Positions 33,615 to 34,483 of a stretch of DNA of 64,000 bases are shown piece after piece. The notes under the pieces are model-generated. The model made no database searches. It saw only the letters and a list, made by a program, of their open reading frames with translations, and had not been told where the DNA came from. Where the stretch lies: NCBI GenBank assembly GCA_030752795.1, contig JASMDM010000003.1:1-64000 (forward strand), read 5' to 3'. The position numbers were made by a program, and so were the translations under genes. Position 1 is the stretch's first letter; the number at the start of each line of letters is the position of its first letter. Source of the stretch: SAR202 cluster bacterium. GTDB lineage: Bacteria > Chloroflexota > Dehalococcoidia > Lucifugimonadales > UBA1123.

Positions 33615-33757
33615 CGTGTGGTTCTTGATCACGTTGATTCTCTGTTCCTGGGCGTCGAGGCCATAGCCGGGAGGCGGCTGCGGAATTGGTGGACGCATCG
33701 GCCGCGGGAACGAGCCGGGAGGGACGAGCCCCGCAATCGAGGATAGAAAGAAAAAAG

Positions 33758-33789
33758 AAAGGACGGGCGCATGCGAGAGCCCGTCCTTT
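33758..33789. terminator. Bidirectional terminator
   Basis: A perfect 11-bp stem (AAAGGACGGGC at 33758-33768, GCCCGTCCTTT at 33779-33789) with a 10-nt loop. It has A-rich sequence on the left and T residues on the right, so it can stop both the plus-strand amidohydrolase and the converging minus-strand deiodinase-like gene. Confidence 0.85.
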
Positions 33790-33828: not shown

Positions 33829-34483
33829 CTAGTCCCCGTCACCGCCGACCGGCACGCTCACGTCGGCCATGCCTTCCGCTCGGAGCTCTTGGAGCACCTT
33901 CACGACCTCTTCGTGCATGGTCCACGTCGACTTGTAGACGACCCTGCCCGTTTTGTCGATGACGTAGATCATGTTGGGCAAGCCACCGAACATCTTGTGG
34001 ATCGCCTCGTCATATCCGTCGATCAAAACCGGAACTTTCATGCCATGGTCCTCAACGAGCTCGCACGCGTAGCCTGTCTTGTGTTCATAACTCGTATGCT
34101 TTGAGTACTGCTCGAATCGCTTTCTACCAGCATGAGGCTCCCGCATGTACACGTTCAAAATCTGGATGTTGCCCGCGAACTCCTCGGCGGTTTCTTCCAC
34201 TACGGCAACCTGCCGCAGATAGGGGGGTCAGGTGATCGCGCCGAACTCAATCACAAGATGCTTCTTGCTCAAGAAGTCGGCCGCGTCGATCCAGTCGCCT
34301 TCCGTGGTTTGCAACCGGAACGTTGGAGCCTGGGAACTTGGTTCGATGATCGTTTTGAAGTCTTTAAAAAAGCCGCCTTGTTCTCGGGTTGACCTTCCTC
34401 CGGGCTGTCGCAATTACGCTGACTTGTCGCTACACGTCGACCGGTCGCGGTGGAAGACTCGGATAGTCTGCTCGTGGTTCCAT
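33829..34483 (-). CDS. Deiodinase-like thioredoxin-fold protein, probable selenoprotein with in-frame TGA; N-terminus frameshifted
   Basis: Two same-frame pieces, separated by one TGA (34228-34230), make a single iodothyronine-deiodinase-like domain. Before the TGA comes SKKHLVIEFGAIT; after it PPYLRQVAVVEETAEEF, then ILNVYMREPHAG with the deiodinase Glu-x-His, and PNMIYVIDKTGRVVYKSTW. Deiodinases carry Sec in T-U-P-P, exactly the TGA position, and a hairpin at 34200-34218 fits a bacterial SECIS. Ordinary gene calling would see only the C-terminal part from the GTG at 34200. An ATG at 34483 with AGGAGG begins MEPRADYPSLPPRPVDV. Later N-terminal pieces (DSPEEGQPENKAAF, then KDFKTIIEPSSQAPTFRL) lie in other frames. 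One shift is explained by an A6 run (34366-34371, T6 on the coding strand) that may have been seven. It is either a real selenoprotein with sequence errors, or a decaying one. Confidence 0.7.
34200..34218 (-). promoter_or_regulatory. Candidate bacterial SECIS hairpin
   Basis: On the coding strand CTGCGGC-AGGTT-GCCGTAG folds into 7 pairs (one G-U) with a five-base loop. The loop begins 16 nt after the in-frame TGA. E. coli fdhF has an AGGUCU loop 17 nt after its UGA, so distance and loop are close to a known SelB-binding element. Confidence 0.65.

Follow-up and report, generated by a model that had tools for sequence, protein, structure and literature searches.

A predicted deiodinase-family selenoprotein gene with a covarying SECIS-like hairpin in a SAR202 cluster bacterium

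Introduction

Does the TGA triplet that interrupts a deiodinase-like reading frame in a SAR202 cluster bacterium encode selenocysteine (Sec), and what chemistry would its product carry out? We address this question for an open reading frame (ORF) on the minus strand of a 64,000-nucleotide (nt) stretch of Chloroflexota DNA (GenBank assembly GCA_030752795.1, contig JASMDM010000003.1, positions 1 to 64,000), hereafter the window. Our analysis supports a deiodinase-family selenoprotein encoded at 34413-33829, with hairpin-aided insertion of Sec at the TGA, that is likely a one-selenol reductase using outside thiols; we put the probability of this reading at roughly 0.7. Its parts differ in strength: decoding of the TGA as Sec is close to certain, one-selenol chemistry with outside thiols is somewhat favored, and the choice of a halide rather than a peroxide as substrate is tentative.

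For twenty years, bacterial deiodinase-like selenoproteins have been listed without a function. The Sargasso Sea survey of 2005 lists four Sec and six Cys forms (PMC1088965), and the Global Ocean Sampling (GOS) table of 2008 contains a deiodinase-like row with the figures 22, 12 and 21 and a blank motif (PMC2398784), which bears out the statement of an initial annotation of this locus that such proteins are known from marine metagenomes. Reviews from 2022 (PMC9312934) and 2026 (PMC13188914) give the family motif as UxxC, and the latter describes the functions of the group as largely uncharacterized. The published proteins share with the window gene membership in PF00837, a Sec form, a bacterial Sec insertion sequence (SECIS) and an uncharacterized function, but their UxxC motif differs from the UPP[YF] of the window clade, which has no Cys three residues after Sec. 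UPP[YF] forms may already be among the 2008 GOS sequences, given the blank motif in that table. A search by title or start of abstract, with subscription journals mostly outside it, found no publication about deiodinase-like selenoproteins of either Chloroflexota or Nitrospinota, and the string 'chloroflex' occurs nowhere in PMC13188914, PMC2398784 or PMC9312934. This kind of protein has been in print since 2005; what is distinct here is an active-site variant belonging to a supported clade with Nitrospinota. The present case ties the gene to a genome that also encodes Sec machinery and to its Nitrospinota kin, with a SECIS backed by covariation rather than by its look.

The reading frame and its TGA codon

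The Sec frame is open on both sides of the TGA and continues for 132 codons beyond it (Table 1). The initial annotation had placed this TGA at the Sec site of deiodinases (T-U-P-P), with coding continuing in frame and a Glu-x-His motif (REPHAG) downstream, and all three elements are present. Read through the TGA, the protein matches PF00837 (T4_deiodinase) at 45.9 bits against a cut-off of 27; the piece after the TGA reaches 20 bits. That piece is what annotation was expected to yield, as a truncated protein from 34200, and the plain ORF list indeed contains only the 123-residue product of GTG 34200-33829, which is identical to a protein-database entry (P0002) and belongs to a cluster of four member sequences on 43 contigs.

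Table 1. Features of the deiodinase-like locus, in window coordinates.
Feature	Position	Strand	Description
Deiodinase-like selenoprotein ORF	33829..34413	minus	194 codons, TTG 34413 to TAG 33831-33829; TGA is codon 62; candidate start
In-frame TGA, predicted Sec codon	34230-34228	minus	Context FGAIT-U-PPYLRQ (T-U-P-P-Y)
SECIS-like hairpin, bacterial type	34200..34218	minus	8 pairs, nt 10-17 with 21-28 after the TGA, loop GGT
123-residue ORF from standard gene calling	33829..34200	minus	GTG 34200 start falls inside the hairpin
Out-of-frame ATG after AGGAGGA (34497-34491)	34481..34483	minus	Own frame ends at TAG 34432-34430 after 17 codons
Thr61, before Sec	34231..34233	minus	Dio3 Thr169 position; invariant in 56 aligned proteins
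Tyr89-x-x-Glu92	34138..34149	minus	Dio3 Tyr197 and Glu200 positions; Glu invariant in 56, Tyr in at least 90%
His94 of E-x-H	34132..34134	minus	Dio3 His202 position; invariant in 56 aligned proteins
His106 of HTSYEHK	34096..34098	minus	Dio3 His219 position
Terminator-like hairpin and U-tract	33747..33789	minus	11 pairs, 10-nt loop, about 40 nt after the stop

The 5' end is less clear. In the Sec frame the first possible start, TTG 34413, lacks a clear ribosome site; ATG 34483 has a good one and lies near the start position of Nitrospinota relatives, but is not in the Sec frame. The span first given for the gene, 33829-34483, accordingly stands at its lower end only.

Other searches also assign the protein to the deiodinase family, as initially proposed. 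A sequence search of the PDB ranked Dio2 (7e-7) and Dio3 (8e-5) first, with a thioredoxin-like protein level with Dio3. The structure model (predicted local distance difference test, pLDDT, 90.2; predicted template-modeling score, pTM, 0.85) predicts a thioredoxin fold, and Dio2 and Dio3 stand at the top of its PDB fold lists, tied with other thioredoxin folds.

The Sec codon across relatives

Matches were found in 61 of 197 genomes searched, the window's own included. Among 71 distinct sequences, the codon aligned with the Sec site is TGA in 65, TGC in three, TGT in one, AGC in one and GCG in one, so that four of the six non-TGA relatives carry Cys. From the matches in the 197 genomes, 30 loci and 20 chosen stretches were taken, leaving out weak matches; the set of 71 excludes one copy from the window's own genome (L028, on contig C33), and duplicates and sequences whose alignment falls short of the Sec column were dropped before counting. 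Near relatives of the window gene have both the TGA and the hairpin described below, and the Cys forms are distant and few.

A scan of named genomes returned 21 loci, 16 of which, from 13 assemblies, form the nearest set (L099-L114). By title, 13 of these loci belong to Nitrospinota, Nitrospinae or Nitrospinaceae and three are designated only 'bacterium'; the remaining five of the 21 come from Acidobacteriota (two), Chloroflexia, Thermomicrobiaceae and Rhodospirillaceae. The Sec site is TGA in all 16 loci of the Nitrospinota set. The scan may omit close neighbors of the window's genome, so little should be read into the absence of Chloroflexota from the nearest set.

Seventeen of 19 database relatives (P0003-P0021, among which P0005 carries the name Dehalococcoidia) start downstream of the Sec site, which suggests that database entries of the deiodinase-like family are often cut, beginning after the active site. 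Two longer entries have Gly (P0007) and Trp (P0008) at the site; judging from the protein entries alone, these residues probably come from gene calls made under another genetic code. At relative loci, an antisense ORF often exceeds the post-TGA piece (for example, L099 4423-4965 and L113 8076-8777, both on the minus strand), and automated calling there may report the wrong strand. The window's genome holds two further copies: a second Sec copy with UPDC (L059, G000:C65:1249-1728), and a third, L028 (G000:C33:53069-53452), with Cys at the site by reading of its ORF.

A hairpin downstream of the TGA

Bacterial SECIS elements are described as hairpins just after the TGA with a small apical loop containing G (PMC1088965), a description that the window hairpin fits. 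It can also be drawn with seven pairs around AGGTT, the form in which it was initially noticed; the stem then begins 9 nt past the TGA and the loop 16 nt past it. Folding of 41 nt gave a minimum free energy of -13.9 kcal/mol (z = -2.29 relative to dinucleotide shuffles, of which 5 in 200 did as well), and shuffling of synonymous codons over nt 4-33 gave z = -2.4, with 1 of 300 as good.

Stronger support comes from covariation among 65 sequences (57 distinct). Paired cells make up 77.9%, versus 46.9% after shuffling and 50.9% at the best slid position; 145 cells changed on both sides, versus a shuffled mean of 58; and the covariation score is 0.678, versus 0.236 for the best slid position and 0.176 for shuffles. 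None of 500 shuffles reached any of these three values. That all eight pairs show two-sided change is uninformative, as 343 of the 500 shuffles reach the same count, and the end pairs are weak (among 57 sequences, pairing fails in 38 for 10-28, in 26 for 17-21 and in 18 for 11-27). The signal persists in the 26 UPP[FY] sequences taken alone (0.442, versus 0.096 best slid and 0.113 shuffled), with two-sided changes in five of eight pairs, and all 65 sequences have G at loop column 18. Registers vary within the nearest set: nine loci have seven pairs, L099-L102 and L104 have five pairs one column off, and L109 and L114 have five-pair variants. Pairing was poor for L077 and L117 in a simple stem search.

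Synonymous-codon shuffles separate this constraint from that of the protein. The mean z of Sec groups ranges from -1.25 to -2.5, with 38 of 65 sequences below -1.5, compared with -0.65 and none below -1.5 in a small control of six non-Sec homologues; at eight other places in the same genes, group means lie between -0.61 and 0.48, and the values for the window gene alone between -1.46 and 1.2. Where the site is TGA, the hairpin is thus favored by more than the coding requirement of the protein.

Selenocysteine machinery

The draft genome that contains the window (G000; 3.5 Mb, 116 contigs, 91% complete, 5.6% contaminated) encodes all four Sec components: tRNA-Sec (71.9 bits; ARAGORN anticodon tca), SelA (545 bits), SelB (326 bits with pieces joined) and SelD (366 bits). 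The tRNA-Sec, SelA and SelD are located on contig C44, SelB on C67 and the window on C3. Of the 197 genomes searched (the window's own included), 170 have a SelA match over the cut-off, and Sec machinery is therefore common in the lineage. Among the best 120 of 8,000 matches, the SelA relatives bearing an organism name are labeled Dehalococcoidia, Chloroflexi and Dehalococcoidia. Together, the TGA in 65 of 71 distinct sequences, the covarying hairpin and this machinery uphold the initial claim of a Sec-containing protein. Two outcomes that the initial annotation named as refuting it, a genome lacking Sec machinery and close relatives with plain TGC or TGT and no hairpin, were looked for and not found.

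The SelD gene (L022 1486-2421, minus strand) has an in-frame TGA of its own, in SCAG-U-AAKF; from this context it is probably also a selenoprotein gene that standard annotation cuts.

Clades of deiodinase-like proteins

We built a tree from a 56-row protein alignment, which omits 15 of the 71 sequences, including the Ala form L039 and the Ser form L061. Four Sec clades, told apart by active-site anatomy, are supported: the window gene with the Nitrospinota set, UPP[YF] (12 rows, support 98/98); UxxC forms other than UPPC (13 rows, 99/97); UPPC forms, including one UGPC (18 rows, 97/89); and UPP[FY] forms with an Omega-loop (9 rows, 100/99). The three Cys forms make up a group of their own (100/99), and L118 joins no group; according to a warning from the tool, long branches may draw the Omega clade and the Cys forms together. 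The window row itself has a long branch (0.82).

Among the window gene's kin, the nearest whose active site can be read belong to another phylum, the closer pieces P0003-P0006 lacking the active-site part, and the genomes of its genus or family that have a match (G001, G002 and G004, of seven) carry UxxC or UPPC forms where these could be read. Marine Nitrospinota and Chloroflexota may have exchanged the gene. Like the window gene, the Sec paralogues from the same order (UPPC, other UxxC and UPP[FY]-Omega) have an in-frame TGA and a hairpin in the same place, but they form separate supported clades; the UPPC and other UxxC proteins have Cys at the third residue past Sec, and the animal loop motif is retained in the Omega clade.

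The Omega clade comprises L076 (1998-2528, minus strand), L057, L058, L063, L073, L074, L075, L077 and L078, all from same-order genomes. The animal Omega-loop motif, as AHPxDGW, occurs in seven of these nine Sec proteins, with DGR in L073 and L075. L076, which has GGxGP like Dio, matches mouse Dio3 with an E value of 2e-26 (96 bits) and PF00837 at 118.9 bits, and is far closer to Dio3 than the window gene is. The presence of this clade in same-order bacteria bears on the origin of animal deiodinases.

The predicted active site

Gly, Thr, Sec/Cys, Glu and His are invariant in the 56 aligned proteins. The window gene shares with animal Dio1-3 (structures 4tr3 and 9h48) T-U-P-P, Tyr-x-x-Glu-x-His, a second His and, as the model predicts, the thioredoxin fold; published work describes what Thr, Tyr, Glu and both His do in Dio (PMC7506546, PMC9141512). 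It differs from Dio1-3 in having Ala at Ser167 (as in all 16 Nitrospinota-set sequences), Ile at Cys168, a bacterial hairpin inside the ORF and no AHxxDGW. This Omega-loop motif takes part in thyronine binding (motif and numbering from PMC7506546); the window gene has PHAGRKRF in its place, without the Trp, and has 11 residues between the two His compared with 16 in Dio3, a loop five residues shorter. At the Arg/Lys clamp (Dio3 Arg275), sequence alignments stop just before the position. By its sequence, which is without the Omega-loop motif and an equivalent of Ser167, the protein falls outside the iodothyronine deiodinases strictly defined. Its shorter, Trp-free loop is the reason to expect that it would not act on thyronines.

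Thiol-disulfide oxidoreductases (CxxC/UxxC) have a second Cys three residues on, whereas the window gene reads UPPY, and its sole Cys is Cys117.

Proposed function and alternative readings

In the mechanism we propose, SelB would bring Sec-tRNA to the UGA at the hairpin, and the selenolate, placed beside Thr61, Tyr89, Glu92, His94 and His106 in the deiodinase hydrogen-bond network, would attack the electrophilic atom of a small substrate. As the atom attacked, we slightly prefer a ring-bound halogen of an organic compound, which would make the reaction a reductive dehalogenation, to the oxygen of a peroxide: the protein retains Tyr-Glu-His-His but not the hydroxyl that peroxiredoxins use, three positions ahead of Sec. 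The resulting Se-X or Se-OH intermediate would be re-reduced by cellular thiols, or by Cys117 in members that have it. Cellular thiols are the preferred reductant because no Cys lies three residues after Sec and because Cys117 occurs in 12 of 20 rows of near relatives (the window included, P0003-P0006 among them) and in one of the 16 Nitrospinota-set loci.

The strongest competitor, a real possibility though probably not the correct one, is a Sec peroxidase that reduces hydrogen peroxide or organic peroxides in the manner of one-Cys peroxiredoxins or GPx, its deiodinase likeness reflecting ancestry only. The window protein scores over the cut-off for Redoxin (33.2 bits) and AhpC-TSA (32.7 bits), both below T4_deiodinase, and in L108 Redoxin outscores T4_deiodinase; one-Cys peroxiredoxins (AhpE) are among the fold matches; and the Dio fold has been reported to contain a peroxiredoxin motif (PMC11592359). 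One-Cys peroxiredoxins (AhpE, AhpC-TSA) thus resemble the window protein in fold and family match, but the latter has Sec in place of Cys and no Thr or Ser three residues before the catalytic residue: the Thr of the Sec peroxiredoxin motif TXXU (table of PMC1088965) is replaced by Ala (GAITU) in the window gene and in 16 of 16 Nitrospinota-set sequences, and what is retained is the Tyr-x-x-Glu-x-His and the second His of deiodinases.

An inner partner, with a Sec62-Cys117 selenenylsulfide forming in each cycle and a Sec-Cys redox pair in place of a one-selenol enzyme, is unlikely. Cys117 is the only Cys and is retained by more than half of the near-relative rows, but its near absence from the Nitrospinota set speaks against this reading.

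A weak point of our reading is the 5' end, whose layout may reflect a fault in the assembly, damage to the gene or an N-terminus that is shorter. If the gene were a degraded copy, the catalytic part would be a remnant and the 5' part would have slipped out of frame, as the ATG 34483 behind AGGAGGA near the relatives' start, its frame of only 17 codons, the TTG start of the Sec ORF and the long tree branch might suggest. We consider decay decidedly unlikely, as the TGA, the hairpin pairing, the Thr-Tyr-Glu-His-His set and the whole frame after the TGA are intact, a strong terminator hairpin follows, and the 123-residue cluster exists beyond this contig.

That the TGA is an ordinary stop and only the 123-residue protein from GTG 34200 is made is highly improbable. 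Standard callers report this ORF and databases hold it, yet its family match falls under the cut-off, its start lies inside a covarying hairpin, and the frame upstream of the TGA has 46% of residues in common with the Nitrospinota set, with codon-like differences (the second codon position is least variable, at 0.214 versus 0.458 and 0.591). Reading of the TGA as Trp or Gly by another code, prompted by the database entries P0008 and P0007, can be dismissed, given that TGA terminates 12 of the window's 36 long mechanical ORFs, that all four Sec components are present, and that the site is TGA throughout the Nitrospinota set and Cys in most non-TGA relatives.

Returning to the selenol reductase, a bolder extension, which we regard as rather unlikely, is that Nitrospinota and Chloroflexota share a selenium-dependent, flavin- and cobalamin-free reductive dehalogenase for small marine organohalides, built on a deiodinase scaffold that kept the active-site network and dropped the thyronine loop, and that a sister clade of bacteria, already bearing the Omega-loop, gave rise to the thyroid deiodinases of animals. 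With the four Sec clades distinguished by their active sites, the choice among halide, peroxide and disulfide becomes testable with one small enzyme panel.

Genomic surroundings and other searches

The terminator-like hairpin after the stop codon (-21.3 kcal/mol, z = -5.5, 0 of 200 shuffles) fits a single-gene unit; its 10-nt loop was seen by folding, and a terminator pattern scan with a loop limit of 8 reported none. Rfam at gathering scores gave nothing in the window, and one RNase P model had no match in the genome. A phage origin or mobility was rejected: the phage collection held no match, and 36 pattern matches to viral contigs yielded none confirmed.

Neighboring genes in the window encode a major facilitator superfamily (MFS) transporter, an amidohydrolase and a Band 7 protein. 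Ten neighbors scanned at L085, L090, L100 and L113 comprise an MFS pair, an FR47-like acetyltransferase, two luciferase-like monooxygenases, FtsH-like, methionine synthase-like and 2-hydroxyacid dehydrogenase proteins, and two without a family. We drew no operon clue to function from the neighbors of the window gene and these four loci. Clustering of neighboring ORFs is uninformative on the Sec gene itself, the picker having taken antisense ORFs over it in many loci. One neighbor cluster stands beside or near the deiodinase-like gene in L108 and L110-L113 and, more loosely, in L083-L085, L089, L090 and L096; both members scanned (L113 and L085) are luciferase-like monooxygenases, an association that could arise by chance in genomes rich in them.
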